Shown in pieces: positions 232 to 20,412 of a stretch of 20,420 nucleotides of DNA. Location: IMG/VR virus record IMGVR_UViG_3300010354_000877, positions 1-20,420 of that record. One strand, 5' to 3'. The notes under the pieces were generated by a model, which made no database searches, was not told the origin of the DNA, and saw only the letters and a list, made by a program, of their open reading frames with translations. Position 1 is the stretch's first letter; every line of letters begins with the position of its first letter. The translations under genes were made by a program, and so were the position numbers. The DNA is from a virus.

Positions 232-365
232 CAGCCCTTCCCTTGACCCCTGAGGCGCTTGCGGTTACGCGGGCGTGAATGTTGACCCTGCCCGATGCTG
301 GTGCGCTTGGGTTTGCCGGGTTTGTGCTCGACACGCCCCAGCGCGGTCTTGGATTTTGTTGCCAT
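231..365 (-). CDS. Small basic conserved phage protein, 44 aa
   Basis: This 44-codon gene runs from ATG 365-363 to TGA 233-231. The product begins MATKSKTALGRVEHKPGKPK and ends in a Lys/Arg/Gly-rich tail (RKRLRGQGKG). At least 14 residues are Lys or Arg, and there is no hydrophobic segment. The N-terminal GRVEHKPGKPK pattern looks like a small basic hypothetical protein that recurs in cyanophage genomes; I recognise the pattern but cannot search for it. Its stop overlaps the start of the proline-rich gene by one base. No convincing ribosome site precedes it. The role is unknown; basic charge would allow nucleic-acid or virion binding, which is inference only. A longer frame on the same strand (427-101) covers the same DNA but has no family character. 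Confidence 0.65.
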   Translation of the reverse strand: MATKSKTALGRVEHKPGKPKRTSIGQGQHSRPRNRKRLRGQGKG

Positions 366-430
366 GTCGGTGTAAAATTGTGCGAGCGGCGTGCGTCAAC
401 ACCCGCTCTCGACCACTTTGCACGCAAGTG

Positions 431-940
431 ATGATTAAGTTTAGCCCTTTGCCTCCTATTGAGGAGCTGCGTACCTTGCTTGAATTATCCGCCGATTCCC
501 CTACGGGACTTAAGTGGCGGAATAACGGACCGGGGATAAGAAAAAACAGAGTGGCTGGCTGGTGGAAAGAGGGCGAATGGGGGAAAATACGCATCGCTAG
601 CAAGTACTACAAGACCCACAGAATTGTCTGGGCTTTGCATACTGGCGAGGATCCTGGCAATAACTTAATTGATCACATCAACAGAAGACCGCACGACAAC
701 AGAGTCGAAAATCTGCGTTTGGTTAAACATGGCGAAAACCGATACCACAGCAGTACCGATAAAAACGCGACAGGCTACAGAGGCGTGACAAAGCTACAGA
801 GATGCGCTAGATGGTCGGCGCACATTAAAAAAGACGGAAAAAATTATTACCTAGGATGCTTTGACTCTCCTGAGAAAGCACACAGGGCTTATTTGAAAGC
901 GTGCCAAGAGCTGTATGGGTACATTCCCGGCACGCTGTGA
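431..940 (+). CDS. HNH endonuclease with AP2 DNA-binding domain
   Basis: This 169-aa protein matches free-standing phage HNH/AP2 homing-type endonucleases. Such enzymes cut DNA with a metal-dependent HNH fold and recognise the site partly through the AP2 domain. An N-terminal region (LPPIEELRTLLE, residues 7-18) leads into the HNH core: IDHINRRPHDNRVENLRL at residues 80-97, with Asp81-His82, Asn90 and Asn94 as expected key positions. An AP2-like domain follows at about 114-163 (TGYRGV at 114-119, LGCFDSPEKAHRAY at 141-154). ATG 431 is preferred over the in-frame ATG at 275, because the extra residues lack family similarity and that DNA overlaps the 44-aa gene. GTG 428 is also possible. The ribosome site is weak. 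It is the only plus-strand gene accepted, it ends three bases from the convergent 106-aa gene, and it has lower GC than its flanks, all suggesting later insertion. Confidence 0.9.
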   Translation: MIKFSPLPPIEELRTLLELSADSPTGLKWRNNGPGIRKNRVAGWWKEGEWGKIRIASKYYKTHRIVWALHTGEDPGNNLIDHINRRPHDNRVENLRLVKHGENRYHSSTDKNATGYRGVTKLQRCARWSAHIKKDGKNYYLGCFDSPEKAHRAYLKACQELYGYIPGTL

Positions 941-11146: not shown

Positions 11147-11529
11147 CAGCCGTCCCTCTGGCCACTCAGTCTTACAGAGATACTACTCACACCTGGACGC
11201 ACAGATGTCAAACGCGGCTGCTCCGCAAAACGCCATAGGTACGTACCAGCGATCAAAACTCTTAGTTCCTCTGACATTCCGGCCCAAAAGACATCGGGTA
11301 ATGCCAGATCGTCGGTGCTTCCTCGTGCCTGGTCATAGGCACTTGCAATGCTTAGGGCTTGTGCGTCAGTCAGATTTTCAAACTGCAAGTCAAGCTCAGC
11401 GTTGAAGGGCCTGGTGCTGTACGCACGCGTCGTGCCCGTTCCAGCGATTGAGGTGAACCGCTTGGTGGCGTATTGGCCTTGAGTGATCTGCCGTGAACTC
11501 GGGGTCAGGGCGGGAAACGCGGTACTCAT
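11146..11529 (-). CDS. Minor tail protein, 127 aa
   Basis: The sequence starts MSTAFPALTPSSRQITQGQY, and the middle reads LDLQFENLTDAQALSIASAY. The C-terminal part is TYLWRFAEQPRLTSVRPGVS followed by SISVRLSGQRDG. This pattern (FPALxPSSR at the start, ENLTDAQA helix, WRF...P.LTSVxPGVSSISVxL end) recurs in marine siphophage tail operons, where it is called a minor tail protein. It has a general likeness to the lambda gpM / distal-tail group, but I cannot assign a family. It begins in an ATGA overlap with the end of the hub gene and is therefore probably translated by coupling. Confidence 0.7.
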   Translation of the reverse strand: MSTAFPALTPSSRQITQGQYATKRFTSIAGTGTTRAYSTRPFNAELDLQFENLTDAQALSIASAYDQARGSTDDLALPDVFWAGMSEELRVLIAGTYLWRFAEQPRLTSVRPGVSSISVRLSGQRDG

Positions 11530-14500
11530 GTCACAACAACGGTATGCGTATCGGACTGGGGACTGTCGCTGGCTGATGGCGAACTGACGGTACAGGTAAG
11601 GGTGTACGTACCAGCTGTATCAAATGTAATCGTGGCGCGTGGTGCGCTTGAGTTCCCAATTGAAGCTGAGGCGTCTGTAGTTGCGGATTCCCAGCTCCAG
11701 CTTGTGAAGGCTGCAGATAGTGCATCCGCCGTGCCAGTTCCCGTGCCCGCGCCGGTGGCGGTAAAGACTACGCCGACCGTGTTGGCGGAGGCGCCGATTG
11801 CGGTGAAATTGGTTGTGCCGACACTGACGATTTGATAAGTCTGTCCCGTAATGAACGAGCCTGCGGCTGTAGCGGCAGGTTTGCCGGTGTAGCTGACGGT
11901 ATACGCCTTGGTGGCGCCGACGGCAGCGGTTGTATCGCCACTAATCGTTGCCGTACCAATGGTGGTTACTGTGGGCGCTGTAACGGCTGCGATGGTTTTG
12001 CTGTCAGAACGGGACTGACCGTCACGGGTTACGGTGCAAGTGATGGTTTTGTTTCCGCTGCTGGTTGCGGTGACCGTTGTTGTAGCGGAAGTGCTGCTGC
12101 CAAAAGTGACGCCAGCTCCTGACCATGCGTAGGTATACGTGCCAGCGCCACCACTAATTAGGGCGCTGTAGGTCTCTGCTGTGTCCACAGTCACGCTGCC
12201 TGGACCGATGATCGAAACGCCGGTAAAGGCACTGGTCGTGGTGCCGCTGTCTTCGCTGGTGCCAATGCGGCCTTCAATTGTCCAGTTTGTTGCCACGTCC
12301 CAGCCGTCAACTACAGCGCTGTAGCCGTTGTCGCTGAGCGGGAAGTACAGCGCATCGACCTGGATATTGCCGTCTTCGTCGAAACCCAGACTCTGCACTT
12401 TGTATGCGCGGGTTTCGGCGCTGGCCTGCTTTAAGCAGAAGGCTGCGCTGGTGTACTGAGTAGTGCGCCCATTACTGACGTTGAGTGTGACCTCTTGTAT
12501 GGAATTGGTCGTACCAGTCCAGAGCAGCACGGTATAGGCGCCGTCGGCTAAGGGTTCGGTGGTCGTGATGTAGCCGTTGGAATCGATCGCACCATTGTTG
12601 GGTTGTGCGTACGACACTGTCTCCAGACCCAGCTTGAAGCAGCGGCCCACTTCGAGTGCAGCTTGCGTTGGTGTGGTTTTGAACCTGATCGAGTGCGTAA
12701 TTAGGCGCTTTCCACGGCAGATGTACTTGGCTACGTCGATTGCGTGGGTTTCGCTTGTGCAGAAATCGCTAAGGTCGATCGTTTCGAGTGGTGCATTTGC
12801 TGGTGTGCTGGCCTCGCGAACTGTCACCTCACGGATGACCGGGAATAAGCCCTTATTGCTGTCGGTGCTTGTCTCTTTTTCCTGCCGCCATTTCACCGAT
12901 ACTCGGTTGGGGATGCGTTGCTCAGAATCGACGTAGACCAGCTCAAACGAATCTTCAAGGATGTTGCCCGCTGTATACAGGTTAGTAATTGGTTCAGCGC
13001 GATCGAAGTAAACCGCTGGCTGGAGCGCAAATTTGCCGTTGCGGATCACCAAGTCGAGCAGGAAGTATGCAGCGGTCTGACTGCCCCATTCCCGTAGGTT
13101 GATCGGTTGAGAAAGCGCACCATCGAAGAAGTAACGGCGCTCTCGAGTCCATTGGGCGCACTCAGCGAAGCTGATGTCATCGACCTGCTGTGCGCTGAGG
13201 ATTGAACCCGTTCCGTAGCGCGTATTCGTTAATAGGTCCTTGAAAACCTCGGGGAAGGTGTGGATGCTGTTGATGCCCTTGTTGACATAGACACTGAGCT
13301 GATTAAGTTGCGTGGCTTCGGTGCTGCTGCGCAGGTTCATTCCAACCAGCGCCATGTTGTCGTACAGCGGTGTAGTGGCGTTCGGGTTGATGAGATTGAT
13401 GTAAACAACCTCGTGCTCGGGGTTAGTAGCCGAGTTTGTGATTTCCTCGAATACGTAGTCCTCAGCTAATTTGCCCCAGGAATCTGCGTAGCTATTGCCG
13501 TCTTGGAGTGTTACGCCTAGGTTTTGATCGCGGGTTGCTGCAATTCCGAACGTACTGGAATCGCGGGAAACTGGCTCGCCTGTGAATACAACAGTAACTA
13601 CGTCATCACCGCTGCCCGAGGTGACGGTGCGCGTACCGCTTAGATGGGCGTCGAGTACTTCCAAGTTGCCGGTTGCGGCACTGCTGCGAATCTCGTAACC
13701 CGTAAGCGGTTCAATGCGGAACTCCCAGCGTGCCGAAGTAGGCATCTGTAACCGCAGGTAGGTATATGTCGATTGCTGGGTCAGGCTGCGGGTGCCAAAG
13801 CACTGGCTTAGGTAGGTGTATTCCTGATCGCTGCCTGCTTCTCTGTACCCGAGTTTGAAAAAGCTGTAGCGGGTTTCGGAGCCGCTAAACGTGCCTGATT
13901 GATAACTGCTGACTTCGAGGCTTTGATCGGGGCGATAGGTTTTGTTGTCGTAGTACGTGCAGGCACGACCGTCGATCTCGCCCTGACTTAGCGAATCGCG
14001 GAAATTGCAAAGACCGCCTATGCGGATACCAAGAGTGCTGCGGAAGCCGATTTCAAGTACTTGAGCTGCACGGGGCAAGGCAAAACTGGAAATCGCAACC
14101 TTGAATAGGTGGCTGGTTGCAGTGGCAGAAGCTGTACCTGAAATGCCGTTTAGGACAGCATTGCCAGCCTTTACGCAGCGAAGGGTGACTTCAATGGCCT
14201 GCCCGCCGCCGATCGGCTCCTGGTCCATTTCAGAAGAAAAGACCACGGTGTCCGGTGAACGTGATTCGCAGATGAATAGCGCTGTACCAAACTTATACAG
14301 GTCGCCAATCGTCAGGGAGTCGTCCCACGAGTGCTGTCTACCTGCGACAGCTTGCGCCACATCACGGCATTTCTCCTCGTGATCTGGACCCTCTTGCGCA
14401 CCAACGAATACGGTATTGGCGTCACTGCCGTTGCTTAGTTGGTACGTTATTGTGTCGCCAATAGCGAAACTCTGTGAGCCACTTGCTGATGATCCGTTCT

Positions 14501-15476
14501 TTTGAGTGACGCCTGAACGGCTCGAAAATATAGTGTTGTACTTATTGCGCTGTGCAGTGGCTACGCCATCGGTATTGCACCTGATTCGGGTGTCCGTCTT
14601 ACCAGCGGGCTCCGTCTTGATTACTACGGCAGGGCGGAGCTGCGGATTGACTCGATAGCCAAACCCATTGCCGATTAGCTGGTATACCCCGAATTGGGTT
14701 TGGGTGCTGGGTTTGAAGGCGTAGCAAAAATCGGTCGTGTAGGCGTTATTGAGACCGCGAATCTGGAAGACATCTCCACCTCCGTCATTCTCGGCGTTGC
14801 CCGCATCATTAGCAGCACTGCGACCTGCAATACGGTCCGCCCCCACAATCCGTCCACCATCTCTGCTCGCGTAGAACGTCACACGACTGGATGCTGAGTT
14901 TCCCGTGGTGAAGTCGTAGCCGCCGAGTACGTTGTCGCCTAGCGCGAATTGAGTTGCGTCAAGCTCATCAATCGTTCCTTCACCGATTAGGAAGATGGCG
15001 CGGAGCATTTGACCGCCCCCTTCACTCATCATTTGAGACCACAACAGGTTCGTGTTAATGCGGACCCCGCCATACGTCACACCGTCGATTGTTTCGCGCT
15101 TTGCGTAAACCAGTGGGATGATGCTGCCGAGTTCGACGACGTTCTGTAGCGAATCAAAGCCGGCTTTCGGTGCAAATTCGTTGCGATTAACGACGTTCTG
15201 ACCAGGCTCTGAAGTCTGTCTGATCTCAGTGGGACGCCCTGGTTGCTTGGGTCTAAATAGAAGAATCGAGGCTGCGCTAAGTATTATACCGATTACTAAG
15301 TTAATTAGAATAATCTCAAAGCCGGATAAATTGACAATTGTTCCCGGTTCAATGCGACTGCGTTTAGCGCATTCGCGTACAAATCCCCGGTACTCGGCCT
15401 CGCTCATGCCGAGCAGGCTCATCAGCTCACGGTCCTGAGGAAGGAGAGCAATGGGATGGCCTTTCGGATTCAGCAT
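11526..15476 (-). CDS. gpJ-like tail tip / central hub protein, 1316 aa
   Basis: This is the central tail-tip protein, by position after the tape measure and by architecture. Residues 53-74 form a glycine-containing hydrophobic segment (FEIILINLVIGIILSAASIL) followed by PKQPG, a hallmark of lambda gpI/gpK/gpJ-type tip proteins. Residues 105-190 resemble the hub entry domain (ELGSIIPLVYAKRETIDGVT). Around 800-860 is AQWTRERRYFFDGALSQPIN and the following strand-rich hub region. Residues about 1081-1165 and 1166-1316 are two Ig/PKD-like domains, each with a YAWSG or WSWES tryptophan strand and an ITCTV strand. A foreign-looking module at 1206-1253 splits the second. The start overlaps the preceding stop (TAATG) without a ribosome site, so translation is coupled. 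No separate gpK- or gpI-like genes precede it. Confidence 0.85.
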   Translation of the reverse strand: MLNPKGHPIALLPQDRELMSLLGMSEAEYRGFVRECAKRSRIEPGTIVNLSGFEIILINLVIGIILSAASILLFRPKQPGRPTEIRQTSEPGQNVVNRNEFAPKAGFDSLQNVVELGSIIPLVYAKRETIDGVTYGGVRINTNLLWSQMMSEGGGQMLRAIFLIGEGTIDELDATQFALGDNVLGGYDFTTGNSASSRVTFYASRDGGRIVGADRIAGRSAANDAGNAENDGGGDVFQIRGLNNAYTTDFCYAFKPSTQTQFGVYQLIGNGFGYRVNPQLRPAVVIKTEPAGKTDTRIRCNTDGVATAQRNKYNTIFSSRSGVTQKNGSSASGSQSFAIGDTITYQLSNGSDANTVFVGAQEGPDHEEKCRDVAQAVAGRQHSWDDSLTIGDLYKFGTALFICESRSPDTVVFSSEMDQEPIGGGQAIEVTLRCVKAGNAVLNGISGTASATATSHLFKVAISSFALPRAAQVLEIGFRSTLGIRIGGLCNFRDSLSQGEIDGRACTYYDNKTYRPDQSLEVSSYQSGTFSGSETRYSFFKLGYREAGSDQEYTYLSQCFGTRSLTQQSTYTYLRLQMPTSARWEFRIEPLTGYEIRSSAATGNLEVLDAHLSGTRTVTSGSGDDVVTVVFTGEPVSRDSSTFGIAATRDQNLGVTLQDGNSYADSWGKLAEDYVFEEITNSATNPEHEVVYINLINPNATTPLYDNMALVGMNLRSSTEATQLNQLSVYVNKGINSIHTFPEVFKDLLTNTRYGTGSILSAQQVDDISFAECAQWTRERRYFFDGALSQPINLREWGSQTAAYFLLDLVIRNGKFALQPAVYFDRAEPITNLYTAGNILEDSFELVYVDSEQRIPNRVSVKWRQEKETSTDSNKGLFPVIREVTVREASTPANAPLETIDLSDFCTSETHAIDVAKYICRGKRLITHSIRFKTTPTQAALEVGRCFKLGLETVSYAQPNNGAIDSNGYITTTEPLADGAYTVLLWTGTTNSIQEVTLNVSNGRTTQYTSAAFCLKQASAETRAYKVQSLGFDEDGNIQVDALYFPLSDNGYSAVVDGWDVATNWTIEGRIGTSEDSGTTTSAFTGVSIIGPGSVTVDTAETYSALISGGAGTYTYAWSGAGVTFGSSTSATTTVTATSSGNKTITCTVTRDGQSRSDSKTIAAVTAPTVTTIGTATISGDTTAAVGATKAYTVSYTGKPAATAAGSFITGQTYQIVSVGTTNFTAIGASANTVGVVFTATGAGTGTGTADALSAAFTSWSWESATTDASASIGNSSAPRATITFDTAGTYTLTCTVSSPSASDSPQSDTHTVVVT
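11719..11861 (-). other. Portable GTTNFTAIGAS module inside a PKD-like domain
   Basis: Residues 1206-1253 of the hub protein read GSFITGQTYQIVSVGTTNFT, then AIGASANTVGVVFTATGAG, then TGTADAL. This short module recurs in many unrelated phage surface proteins. Here it lies between AVGATKAYTVSYTG and FTSWSWES, which would otherwise be consecutive strands of one Ig/PKD-like domain. Confidence 0.65.
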
Positions 15477-15951: not shown

Positions 15952-18900
15952 TCAGATACCGATCGAGCGGCGAGCACCGGGGTTATTCTTCAGCGCTGCC
16001 AACGTGCGTGCCTGCCCCAAGCGTGCGCCCTCTTGTGCTGCAACTCGTGTTGCCTGCAGCATATCCTCCTCAGTCACAAAGGGCAGGTCACCCGAACCAA
16101 CGCGGCTGTAGCGAATCTCAGTACTGCCCGCTCCCGATGTAATTAGACGCTCCATGCGCCGCTCGCGTTCAATCGTTGCAGCCCCTTCCATGCTCATGCG
16201 GTTTTCATCGAAGGCTGATGCACCCGCACCAGCGGAGCGGTTACCGAGCGCAGCACGCGAATCAGCGAAATAGGCTGAGACGCCTAGGCGACCGTCCGGT
16301 CCACGGCGAAGCGGGATGATTGCTTCCGGGCCAGCTTCGCCCATCAGGCCAAAGCTGCCAGTGCCACCATCGGCGTACTTGAACATCGTGGGTTTGTTGA
16401 CGATGCCGCCCATGGCGTAACGCTTGAGGCCTTTGTTGAAGACGTTGCCTTTTGCGTTAGGTGTGTACTGGGAGACGCTGGCATTGAACTGTTCAACACC
16501 TCCACCTCCACCAGTACTTGGTCCGCCCAAGGCTTTGATAATTGCTTGAATAGTGGCGATGGCGATCATCTGAGTGATCAGCTTGGCCGCATAGTCAATG
16601 AAGTACTGCCCCAAATTTTGAAGGAACTGCGCCATTGCTTGATCAGCGCTTTGGCTACCCGTAACAACGCTTGTAAAGGCCGCGCTGAACGCACTGCCAA
16701 AGGCCTGGGCTCCTTCCTTTAATTGGTTGATCGGTTTGAGCATCTTTTCTAGATCTTGCTGCATCCGAGCAACTTCGGTCTCACCAGCCTCTCTAAACGT
16801 GGGGTCGATTTCGCGGCGATACAGTTCGGCACCTGCTGCAATGCGCGCTTGTGCATCCGGCAACCCTCGGTACGTTTCCTCTAGTCGCTGGCGTTCACGT
16901 AGTAAGAGGATATTAGTGTAGTCTTTTTCGTTAACAATGCCTAATCTGTAAGCTCTATCCTCCAGTTCTTTATTCAGATCTTGGTCTAATTTTGCCATCT
17001 CTTTACGTCTATCGACCAGATCATCGAAAATAGCTTCGGTGTCTACCAGCATTTTGTTGTATGCTTCTGCTAGCGCTACGCGCCTTTTTTCGGGACTTTC
17101 ATTGAGCTTATTAGCTTCAAAAACGTCTAAAGAGTATTGGGCTTTGATTTGCTCTAATGTGTTGCCTTCACGCTGTGCTTCCAGAATTTGTATGCGTATA
17201 TCTGCTTCTGCTTTTGTGTAGTCTTCGACTTCTTTGCCTTTTTTGCCTTTTCCATCTGTTCCGGTGCCTGCGCCCTCACCTGTAGGAGGTTTGAAATTAG
17301 TTCGTTCTGGTCGTGCGGGAGCATTTGGAACAGGTAGGCCTAAAACGCCACGAGTAAAGTCAAGTTCAAGTTGCTTCTGCTGGTATTGACGTTCTAGTCT
17401 CTCTAAATTAGCCAGGCCGGAAGCACCTATTTGCGCTATTGGATTACGCTGAAAATCTTCATACGCTTTTTTAGCATCTTTTGCGGCTTTTTCAATCTTG
17501 GGTAAATACGCTTTCTGCGCTTTTTGCGCCCCTAATACGGTCTCTCTAGACGCACCCTCAAATGCGGCAGCAGCTCCGCCTTTTTCTTTGCGTTGCCTAA
17601 TTTTGTCCAACTCTTGACGGGCTTGAATCAGCGTCTGTAAACCAAAAACAGCGACACTTATGACGATCGGAGCAGCGGCAGCGAGTGCAAACGCACGTAG
17701 CGAAGCCGCGGCAGCCTTGATACGCATTTCAGCGACAATAGCTTGCTGAGATGTACGAGCAAATCCAGCTTGTAATGCTAGAAATGCTGTGCTAATCGGA
17801 CCATTCATCGCAATGAACGCCTTCATAGCTAGATTGACTAATGCAAACGTTGCCGCAAACTTGGCAATAGCGGCGATATTACTTGCGTTATCAATAATAA
17901 ATTTCAGTCCTTCCCCAATCTTTCTAGCGGCCTCGACTGCAGCAGGGGTGATGTCGGTAATGAACTTAGCGAAGGCTGCTTGGAATTCGGCGCCGATCGG
18001 CTGGAGCGCCTTACCTACCGCAAGGCGCATGTCGTTGAATGCAACAGTCAGACGCGCACCAGCGTCTGCACTACTCCCTGAGATATCTAAGGCAGTCTTA
18101 TTAAAGCGAACGCCCAGTGCCTCGACGAAGTTCATCAGCTCGTTCAAGCCGACTTCGCCTTTCTTCAATGCTTCCTGCAGTTCGGGGAGCGACATCTTGT
18201 TCGCTTCGGCGAACATCGTGACCGCACCAGGCAAGCGCTCACCTAATTGGCCGCTTAGTTCTTCTGCGCTTACCTTGCCTTTGGAGAAGACCTGAACCAT
18301 CGCAGTGATGGCGCCTTGAACGTCTTCCGCACCACCGCCTGTCGCCTTGATTGCAGAGGTGACGTTCTTAAAGACGAGCTCGGCATCAGTTACGTTGCCG
18401 CCGGCGCCTTTAACTGCGGCGCTGAGTCTCGTCATGCCCGCAATCGCCACGTCCTGTGGGACGTTCAGCGTTTTGGTTACATCTGCTGCGGCCTGGACTG
18501 CACGGGTGTATTCAGCCTGCGAACCAGCGACCCCGCGAAGCGCAATCTGCAATTTGCTGATCTGAGCCGCGTAGTCGGCGGTGCCTGCAAGCTGCTGCCT
18601 AAGGGCGCTGACTTGCGCACCAGCGGCTGCACCGGCAAAAGCGCCTCCAACGCCGCCTAATGCACCACCGGCAACACCGCCTAAGAAACCCTCGGGGCCG
18701 CCGAAAATACCGCCTGAGATGGCCGCGCCTGCGACTTGGGCGTATCCACGGGCACCTAAGGGTGGGCGAGCAGCTTGGCGAGCAGCGCCAGCCCGCATCA
18801 CATCGACGGCGCTACTGATCGGGAAGATGTTGTCGCCTCGACGGGGAGGAGGAAGCGGAACAATTCCAGCCCGCGTACCACCGGCGATCATTGCTCCGGT

Positions 18901-19746
18901 GACTGGATCTCTGAACCCGCCTACTCCAGGAGCTAATGGACCTTGGGTGCGGTAGTACTCCTGGATATTGGCCAGTTTTTCGGCCCGACGAATGGCCCCA
19001 TCTTCACGGCGCTGTAACTCGTCGTATGCCGCTGAAGTTTGCCCTAGTACCTCATTAAGTTCCCGTTGCGCGCCTATAAGTTCCTGTTGTGTACGACGCA
19101 ATTCGTCGCTACCGATCTCTAAGTGATCGACTTCAGCAGTTAATTCAGTAATTCGTTGGCGGAGACCAGCCACCGTATCTGGTAAGCCAACGGCAAGTGC
19201 CCGCTCAGGCATTGCCCGACGTGCCGCAGCTGCTGCTGCAGACACTTCTTGACGACCAGTAATAAAACCTTGACGGCGCTCATAGGCACGAATACCCGTA
19301 AGAAGCTCAAGATATTCCTGGCTATCTACGGCCAGGCCCTGCAGTTCTTTACGTCTCGCTTGAATAGCAGAAGCAAACTGCTCACTTCCATAACCGGGAA
19401 CAGTAAAAGATCCAAGATTATTCTTTACCTTGGTTACTGAGCCATCTAGCTGCCCAAGCTCCGCGTTTAGTTTTTCAATGTCTCTGGTTAATTTGTTATA
19501 CGTACCGCTGTTTATTGTGGTTTGCGCTTGTAGACCTTTTAGTGCCTGGATCTGCCCATTTATTAATTGCGTACTCTTAGCGCTCTGATTGCCAAACTCG
19601 AGGACCCCGCGTCGTAATTCCTGAATACCCTTATCGGTTACGCCTACGGTCTGCTCAAGAGCCCGAAACTGACCCTTCAGGCGCGAAAACGTAGCTTCAC
19701 CTTCAAGGCTGACCTTGATTTTGATGTCGCTTACCGTCTTAGCCAT
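15952..19746 (-). CDS. Tape measure protein, 1264 aa
   Basis: This protein sets tail length and fills the tail tube. Residues 1-110 and about 193-263 are heptad-rich coiled coils (LRQRITELTAEVDHLEIGSD). A Gly/Ala-rich hydrophobic stretch lies near 341-378. A conserved tape-measure domain follows at about 383-560 (AADVTKTLNVPQDVAIAGMT, GKVSAEELSGQLGERLPGAV). Two hydrophobic segments at about 622-656 and 681-706 could act in membrane passage of DNA. The C-terminal part, near 1100-1160, is lambda gpH-like: NKGLKRYAMGGIVNKPTMFK, LMGEAGPEAIIPLRRGPDGR. No lysozyme or peptidase motif is seen. The start overlaps the chaperone stop by eight bases. About 190 nm of tail is expected at 1.5 angstroms per residue. 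The stretch 16900-17660 has lower GC than the rest. Confidence 0.95.
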   Translation of the reverse strand: MAKTVSDIKIKVSLEGEATFSRLKGQFRALEQTVGVTDKGIQELRRGVLEFGNQSAKSTQLINGQIQALKGLQAQTTINSGTYNKLTRDIEKLNAELGQLDGSVTKVKNNLGSFTVPGYGSEQFASAIQARRKELQGLAVDSQEYLELLTGIRAYERRQGFITGRQEVSAAAAAARRAMPERALAVGLPDTVAGLRQRITELTAEVDHLEIGSDELRRTQQELIGAQRELNEVLGQTSAAYDELQRREDGAIRRAEKLANIQEYYRTQGPLAPGVGGFRDPVTGAMIAGGTRAGIVPLPPPRRGDNIFPISSAVDVMRAGAARQAARPPLGARGYAQVAGAAISGGIFGGPEGFLGGVAGGALGGVGGAFAGAAAGAQVSALRQQLAGTADYAAQISKLQIALRGVAGSQAEYTRAVQAAADVTKTLNVPQDVAIAGMTRLSAAVKGAGGNVTDAELVFKNVTSAIKATGGGAEDVQGAITAMVQVFSKGKVSAEELSGQLGERLPGAVTMFAEANKMSLPELQEALKKGEVGLNELMNFVEALGVRFNKTALDISGSSADAGARLTVAFNDMRLAVGKALQPIGAEFQAAFAKFITDITPAAVEAARKIGEGLKFIIDNASNIAAIAKFAATFALVNLAMKAFIAMNGPISTAFLALQAGFARTSQQAIVAEMRIKAAAASLRAFALAAAAPIVISVAVFGLQTLIQARQELDKIRQRKEKGGAAAAFEGASRETVLGAQKAQKAYLPKIEKAAKDAKKAYEDFQRNPIAQIGASGLANLERLERQYQQKQLELDFTRGVLGLPVPNAPARPERTNFKPPTGEGAGTGTDGKGKKGKEVEDYTKAEADIRIQILEAQREGNTLEQIKAQYSLDVFEANKLNESPEKRRVALAEAYNKMLVDTEAIFDDLVDRRKEMAKLDQDLNKELEDRAYRLGIVNEKDYTNILLLRERQRLEETYRGLPDAQARIAAGAELYRREIDPTFREAGETEVARMQQDLEKMLKPINQLKEGAQAFGSAFSAAFTSVVTGSQSADQAMAQFLQNLGQYFIDYAAKLITQMIAIATIQAIIKALGGPSTGGGGGVEQFNASVSQYTPNAKGNVFNKGLKRYAMGGIVNKPTMFKYADGGTGSFGLMGEAGPEAIIPLRRGPDGRLGVSAYFADSRAALGNRSAGAGASAFDENRMSMEGAATIERERRMERLITSGAGSTEIRYSRVGSGDLPFVTEEDMLQATRVAAQEGARLGQARTLAALKNNPGARRSIGI

Positions 19747-20412
19747 CGGAGCGCTTACGCAGTTCGCTTAATGCCGTTGACTCCATGATCTGGAGACCTT
19801 CAAGCATGTCGCGGCGGTTCTCCACATTGTAGAGGTCACACAAGCCCCCGTTACTAAGTAGGACCTCGTATTTGAGGCCTACATAGCCGGCCATGCTGAC
19901 GGTCCATTGCGTCTGCATGCGTAGGAACATCATCACGATGTCCCAATTCTCGTCCCAGACTTCGAAGTCGCTGCTGGTCTTGTCCGACTTGGGCGATGGC
20001 AGGACAATGCCAAGTGCTTTGGCATCGTCCTGCGAGTTGTCCTCGACCCGCTTACCGCCGCCGGCCCAGTAGATCGCAGCGTCCTTTAGTTTCCCGCACG
20101 AGCGCCTTCGAAGGTGTCGGTGTAAGCCTTGAGGACTCCGCGGATCCAGTAAGGATCGTCGCTAAGTTCGCGCACAGCCTCGAGAGAAAAAGGTACAGGC
20201 TTACCAGCCTCATCGTCGATGCCGTCCCAGCCGGCCAAGACCGCCTTGAGCAGGTCGAATTCACTTTTCTCACTCAGTTTGAGAAACTCTGCACGGCCCA
20301 GGCGCTTGAACACTGCGTCGAAGGTCGTGGTTTCAAAGGTGCCACCGTCAGCCGGCTCCTCGACGTTGACGGGCCACTTGAAAGTTTTGACCTTCTTGCG
20401 AATGAACGCCAT
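19739..20412 (-). CDS. Tail assembly chaperone G-T fusion by -1 frameshift, 224 aa
   Basis: This is the long form of the tail chaperone, which in lambda binds the tape measure (T part) and recruits tube subunits (G part). It reads 20412-20089, slips back one base on GGGAAAC, and continues 20089-19739. The new frame opens straight after the G stop and adds 116 residues beginning LKDAAIYWAGGGKRVEDNSQ. The T part has the DUF1799/gpT-type signature VWDENWDIVMMFLRMQTQW, then AGYVGLKYE and a final GLQIMESTALSEL. An internal ATG at 19936 in this frame exists, but the frame is open and family-like far upstream of it, so the fusion is the better model. The stop overlaps the tape-measure start by eight bases. 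Confidence 0.88.
20086..20412 (-). CDS. Tail assembly chaperone G, 108 aa
   Basis: This is the short, unshifted product. It begins MAFIRKKVKTFKWPVNVEEP, then TFETTTFDAVFKRLGRAEFL and a helical C-terminal half with LLKAVLAGWDGIDDEAGKPV and YWIRGVLKAYTDTF. The lysine-rich start followed by a KWPV strand and a FKRL strand is the usual gpG-like pattern of siphophage chaperones placed just before the tape measure. The gene ends GCG GGA AAC TAA, and the slippery heptamer is the last seven bases before that stop. Only eight bases precede the ATG in the window, so its ribosome site cannot be judged. Making more G than G-T is what the family needs. Confidence 0.88.
   Translation of the reverse strand: MAFIRKKVKTFKWPVNVEEPADGGTFETTTFDAVFKRLGRAEFLKLSEKSEFDLLKAVLAGWDGIDDEAGKPVPFSLEAVRELSDDPYWIRGVLKAYTDTFEGARAGN
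20089..20095 (-). promoter_or_regulatory. Programmed -1 frameshift heptamer GGGAAAC
   Basis: The seven bases read G GGA AAC in the G frame and GGG AAA after slipping, a canonical X-XXY-YYZ site close to the GGGAAAG of lambda. The zero-frame stop TAA follows directly. Nine bases downstream of the heptamer CTGCGA can pair with TCGCAG across about 38 bases, a possible long-range stem or pseudoknot element that might stimulate slipping; that part is tentative. Confidence 0.88.

Follow-up and report, generated by a model that had tools for sequence, protein, structure and literature searches.

Two overlapping reading frames with the appearance of tail assembly chaperones precede the tape-measure gene in the window analysed here, a stretch of 20,420 nucleotides that spans positions 1 to 20,420 of IMG/VR virus record IMGVR_UViG_3300010354_000877. 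Are these frames separate genes, or does the ribosome pass from the first into the second? The first-pass annotation had proposed that a -1 frameshift joins them. Domain matches, gene order, invariant slip codons, frame-specific selection and 231 relatives support this proposal, and a programmed -1 frameshift yielding two tail assembly chaperones from one message is the reading to which we assign a probability of about 0.93. Directly observed are the heptamer and its conservation, selection on the -1 frame as coding sequence, and RNA folding beyond what the protein requires; from these we infer the slippage itself, its rate, the stimulatory role of the RNA and the chaperone functions.

Organisation of the proposed frameshift locus

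The features of the locus are listed in Table 1. The G frame is the first minus-strand open reading frame at the end of the contig, of which 8 nucleotides remain upstream of its start codon, and it encodes a protein with the carboxy-terminal sequence TFEGARAGN. Its 3' end reads GCT CGT GCG GGA AAC TAA; the heptamer GGGAAAC is therefore located directly before the stop codon, as had been claimed, and in the slippery phase. The T part, from LKDAAIYW to KRSDG, is open in the -1 frame from the slip to a TAA codon at 19741-19739, which overlaps the tape-measure gene starting with the ATG at 19746, again in agreement with the earlier description. The predicted G-T fusion has 224 residues (108 plus 116). 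A gene finder unaware of the frameshift would start T at the GTG codon at 19936 and report a protein of 65 residues, losing 51 residues of the T part; these numbers, given in the first-pass annotation, are correct. A second in-frame start candidate, ATG, is located at 19933.

Table 1. Features of the G-T locus, with positions in the window
Feature	Position	Strand	Basis or remark
G-type tail assembly chaperone ORF, zero frame, 108 aa	20086..20412	-	Pfam Phage_TAC_4, PHROG 569, relatives
Slippery heptamer G_GGA_AAC (P-site GGA to GGG, A-site AAC to AAA)	20089..20095	-	In the register that allows tandem -1 slippage
Zero-frame stop TAA directly after the heptamer	20086..20088	-	TAA or TGA follows GGGAAAC in relatives
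T part, -1 frame, 116 aa after the joint, DUF1799	19739..20089	-	
Earliest canonical start of the -1 frame (GTG)	19934..19936	-	Not conserved, probably not used
Predicted stem-loop of about 115 nt, starting 7 nt after the heptamer	19969..20081	-	Folding z, codon shuffles
Perfect 15-bp apical hairpin inside the stem-loop	19999..20033	-	Local folding z -3.8
Tape-measure protein gene	15952..19746	-	Pfam TMP_3, E=5e-21; overlaps the T stop by 8 nt

A count over the ten main genes of the window (6292 codon positions) gives six slippery heptamers in phase. Five of them are away from any zero-frame stop and open between 6 and 31 codons in the -1 frame, whereas the one in G abuts its stop and opens 118.

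Protein families and gene neighbourhood

The G protein belongs to the Pfam family Phage_TAC_4 (PF08748; E=4e-5, 24.2 bits against a gathering cut-off of 21.1), while the T part, described beforehand as gpT- or DUF1799-like, indeed matches DUF1799 (PF08809; E=1e-14, 54.8 bits against a cut-off of 26). In the Pfam scan, with E-values up to 1, nothing beyond these two families was found for either protein. Matches to PHROG 569 for G (E=5e-20) and PHROG 680 for T (E=2e-21) both agree with a tail function. Relatives of G with 74-97% identity are present on 80 viral contigs, and the T part as modelled by AlphaFold (pLDDT 78) resembles tape measure chaperones of other phages in a viral structure library. 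Sequence searches of the PDB with G and T profiles gave no credible match, Foldseek comparison of the G and T models with the PDB gave none, and scans of the window for Rfam families and tRNA genes were likewise negative.

The G-T pair sits between the tail-tube and tape-measure genes, the latter seen in the window and the former in the close relative L003, from which its position was taken since the upstream gene falls outside the window. In L003 the gene order is tail terminator, tail tube, a gene for a C39-like peptidase and then G; the peptidase gene (L003:2169-2939) has a PHROG endolysin match. Elsewhere in the window, an open reading frame on the opposite strand (275-940, plus strand) combines an HNH_3 match with a weak AP2 match and is probably a homing endonuclease inserted among the tail genes, and the minus-strand gene at 11526-15476 encodes a large tail protein whose carboxy-terminus gives a weak PKD-like match.

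Conservation of the slip site

Relatives were gathered by scanning viral contigs with G and T queries and by adding cultured phages, giving 231 distinct T proteins for which the upstream junction is readable. In each of the 231, the final codons of G contain a -1 slippery site and the T part is in the -1 frame, although these relatives are related to each other and the counts are not independent events. GGGAAAC followed by TAA or TGA is found in 143 relatives and AAAAAAC in 87, in 72 of them directly before the stop codon and in 15 one codon before it; an A-rich variant, GGGAAAAAAAAG, is present in one.

The frame change might also be a sequencing error or the trace of a degenerated fused gene, as one base would be enough to merge the two frames. 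The same stop codon and -1 relation are, however, present in all 231 distinct relatives, which come from many samples and include cultured phages. With heptamer, adjoining stop and frame relation recurring in this way, we reject this explanation and regard its probability as negligible.

In 52 non-redundant relatives the slip codons GGA and AAC show 100% codon identity, compared to a mean of 47% for codons of the same residues elsewhere in G and T; since these relatives were chosen as carriers of GGGAAAC, the 100% arises partly by construction, while the tally of 231 sequences is unselected. Elsewhere in G, GGA is a minority glycine codon (146 of 1094). Over the structured stretch downstream as a whole, synonymous-site conservation shows no increase; the increase is confined to the slip codons and the one beside them.

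A few relatives deviate in detail. L193 is the sole one of the 231 without GGGAAAC or AAAAAAC near the stop, and contains an A-rich run, G_GGA_AAA_AAA_AGA, a few codons upstream. The G stop lies one codon past AAAAAAC, as TTA TAG, in 14 loci (L198, L201, L202, L207, L208, L210-L212, L216, L219, L220, L224, L226 and L234) and as TCC TAG in L236. A distant relative from a Klebsiella phage (L356, 1507-1531) has no heptamer but the sequence CAA AAG CAC TAA and an upstream in-frame GTG codon, and may use another route to T, either the A_AAG motif or the GTG start. The scan of genome contigs gave one relative, L164, a related G-T pair with a T part 63% identical, located on a contig of a Maricaulis MAG in the GTDB species genome set; it hints at alphaproteobacterial hosts for some relatives.

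Translation of the T part

If G and T were separate genes, T would need its own initiation, either at the GTG at 19936 or by ribosomes that re-initiate once they have terminated at the end of G. The GTG and the ATG at 19933 are in frame, and public annotations of the Synechococcus phages S-CBS1, S-CBS3 and S-LBS1 do start T internally. Against this, selection on the first 12 codons after the slip, all upstream of the GTG, is purifying only when they are read in the -1 frame: over 137 sequences, dN/dS is 0.16 there, compared to 1.9 and 1.2 in the two alternative frames. In addition, the first canonical start codon of T ranges from codon 4 to codon 54 among the 231 relatives, with no internal start shared between them, and the window contains no start codon near the G stop. 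Purifying selection right behind the joint, combined with the lack of a common start, is a strong argument against two separate genes, and independent translation would leave the invariant GGA and AAC codons unexplained. We therefore consider separate translation very improbable.

A peptide from LKDAAIYWAGGGK, or one spanning the joint, would be incompatible with separate genes. The only tryptic peptide of the fusion that spans the joint is AGNLK, which is too short, so another protease is required for mass spectrometry.

Comparison with phage lambda

In phage lambda, ribosomes that slip back by one base at low frequency close to the end of G produce G-T beside G, and the pair precedes the tape-measure gene. 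The arrangement in the window is alike in that two products would share one start, through a similar low-level slip near the end of G, and in that the T extension is in the -1 frame, upstream of the tape-measure gene. The term lambda-type used in the first-pass annotation is thus appropriate for the mechanism and gene order, but not for the sequence family, Pfam placing the two parts in Phage_TAC_4 and DUF1799; the G and T proteins of lambda presumably belong to other Pfam families, so both parts would differ. Other differences are that the heptamer ends in C here (asparagine codon AAC) and in G in lambda (GGGAAAG), and that here the stop follows the heptamer directly and a conserved 3' RNA structure lies downstream of the slip site.

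The two heptamers had also been likened to each other, which is right with regard to their arrangement; they are not equivalent, as G_GG.A_AA.C is listed among the low-efficiency heptamers in E. coli, together with the A_AA.A_AA.C of other relatives (PMC4066793). This low efficiency makes a weak slip site combined with a 3' stimulator the likely design, in contrast to lambda with its stronger GGGAAAG.

RNA structure downstream of the slip site

The conserved RNA folding after the slip site was not part of the first-pass annotation. Structured 3' stimulators of -1 frameshifting are found in dnaX and in IS elements. Stimulatory structures generally begin 5-8 nucleotides downstream of the heptamer (PMC4066793). 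The stem-loop predicted in the window starts 7 nucleotides downstream and is more stable than coding constraint requires. It is closed by a basal helix of residues 20081-20076 with 19974-19969 (CGCUGC/GCAGCG) and carries the apical hairpin 55 nucleotides from the slip. Compared with dinucleotide shuffles, the z-score of the post-slip stretch with this 15-bp hairpin is -3.7. In a coding-aware control, where shuffles keep the protein and the codon set (dinucleotides are not preserved), the 126-nucleotide stretch of the window has a folding z of -3.8. The window's own short hairpin beside the slip is weak, with a z of about 0 to +0.5.

The same stretch stands out in the relatives. In the 52 GGGAAAC relatives, 126-nucleotide windows from the slip have a mean z of -2.35, with 36 below -2, compared to -0.68 and -0.62 further along T; 45-nucleotide windows give two signals, one right after the slip (-0.8) and one at codons 17-31 (-1.2). 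In the 40 non-redundant AAAAAAC relatives, 45-nucleotide windows give one clear signal, right after the slip, with a mean z of -1.8 and 19 of the 40 below -2; the structure in these relatives is a short hairpin. Within the window's own clade, formed by WIN, L010, L021, L024, L099 and L252 (support 99/99), a long, irregular stem-loop is common to the folds, with the CGCUGC/GCAGCG helix at its base and the 15-bp hairpin at its tip. Several other lineages have a stem of comparable length, closed at the same position by other base-paired sequences, such as GCGGCGCU/AGCGCCGC and GCGGCGG/CCGCCGC, and some relatives have a short hairpin there instead of the long stem. No anticorrelation between near and far hairpins, which would suggest simple replacement of one by the other, was found across the relatives. 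Over 26 close relatives the apical stem is paired in 93% of cells, compared to 29-53% when the partner strand is slid. The test of long-range pairing with own versus swapped partners used clades picked for such pairing. An upstream Shine-Dalgarno-like stimulator was also considered; the signal is modest in the AAAAAAC relatives (mean z -0.8) and unsupported in the GGGAAAC set and in the window.

The frameshift could be real and the downstream folding still be no stimulator, reflecting codon or protein constraint or another role, with the rate determined by heptamer and stop alone. Compensatory base changes are few in the clade of the window, and pairing is partly dictated by protein, the motifs DDA..GIV and AA..GG supplying complementary bases. 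The structure is weak in a number of relatives, several GGGAAAC carriers having neither a strong hairpin nor a long stem, the apical hairpin is far from the slip, and the upstream signal just described is absent from the window. On the other hand, codon shuffles that preserve the protein fold clearly worse, mainly in this post-slip stretch. In the GGGAAAC set, pairing mostly begins 7-9 nucleotides past the heptamer, at the distance expected of a stimulator; an onset at 3-6 nucleotides is common, however, in the AAAAAAC set. The hairpin recurs in the distant phages Silvanus and Henu8, and the weakness of the heptamer in E. coli also speaks for a stimulator. On balance, folding without a stimulatory role is unlikely, and the 3' stem-loop is likely to be the stimulator of a weak slip site.

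Conserved 3' structure was not found for this chaperone family in the literature searched; as hairpins have been predicted for some phage clusters (PMC4066793), priority for it is uncertain.

Proposed mechanism

Most ribosomes would terminate at the TAA codon and release the 108-residue G protein. A minority would slip back by one base on G_GGA_AAC, with the glycine and asparagine tRNAs pairing again in the -1 frame, and continue into the 224-residue fusion. The stem-loop, beginning about 7 nucleotides downstream, would compensate for the weak heptamer, and the 3' RNA probably sets the frequency of slippage. Both lambda products, gpG and gpGT, bind the tape measure, and the partner of T is the tail-tube protein (PMC5009743). 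By analogy, many copies of G and few of G-T would coat the tape-measure protein, the T part recruiting the tail-tube protein.

For the family at large, we lean towards the view that a large group of aquatic siphophages pairs a weak XXXAAAC heptamer with a conserved stimulatory 3' RNA that starts about 7-9 nucleotides away and is, depending on the lineage, a hairpin of about 30 nucleotides or a stem-loop of about 115. The ratio of G to G-T would then be set by the RNA and not by a strong GGGAAAG. This opens a testable question, namely by what means phages adjust the ratio of the chaperones if their slip site is weak. The short hairpin and the long stem-loop, at the same RNA position in sister lineages, offer a natural comparison that bears on how 3' structures drive frameshifting on bacterial ribosomes.

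Related systems in cultured phages

Frameshifted chaperones of tailed phages are well known, and GGGAAAC itself has precedents. It was reported as the slip site of the pre-tape-measure chaperone of Caulobacter phage CcrColossus (PMC3556154), which the T model of the window matches with E=4e-4, though the two are distant in sequence. For gp18/gp19 of Burkholderia phage KL1 it was predicted directly before a first-frame TGA (PMC3483164); unlike in the window, the chaperones are separated from the tape measure by an additional gene. It is also listed for HCTV-1 (PMC5009743).

The T1-like Stenotrophomonas phage Silvanus and Escherichia phage Henu8 have T parts that are detectably related to that of the window. 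In both, the heptamer is directly before the G stop and a hairpin follows about 7 nucleotides downstream, but the heptamer is AAAAAAC and the hairpin short, where the window has GGGAAAC and a stem-loop of about 115 nucleotides. Silvanus is annotated as a joined gene.

The closest cultured relatives of G, with 29-34% identity, are those of the Synechococcus siphophages S-CBS1, S-CBS3 and S-LBS1 (L160, L161 and L162). They have the same -1 arrangement, with AAAAAAC then TGA in place of the heptamer and stop of the window. In their public records G and T appear as two genes, with T shortened, although all three carry the AAAAAAC frameshift site, so that gene models are corrected both for the contig of the window and for cultured cyanophages with a truncated, separately annotated T. 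In these records, G is labelled as hypothetical in S-CBS1 and S-CBS3 and as an ABC transporter ATPase in S-LBS1, and the truncated T of S-CBS1 and S-CBS3 bears the name tail length tape measure protein.
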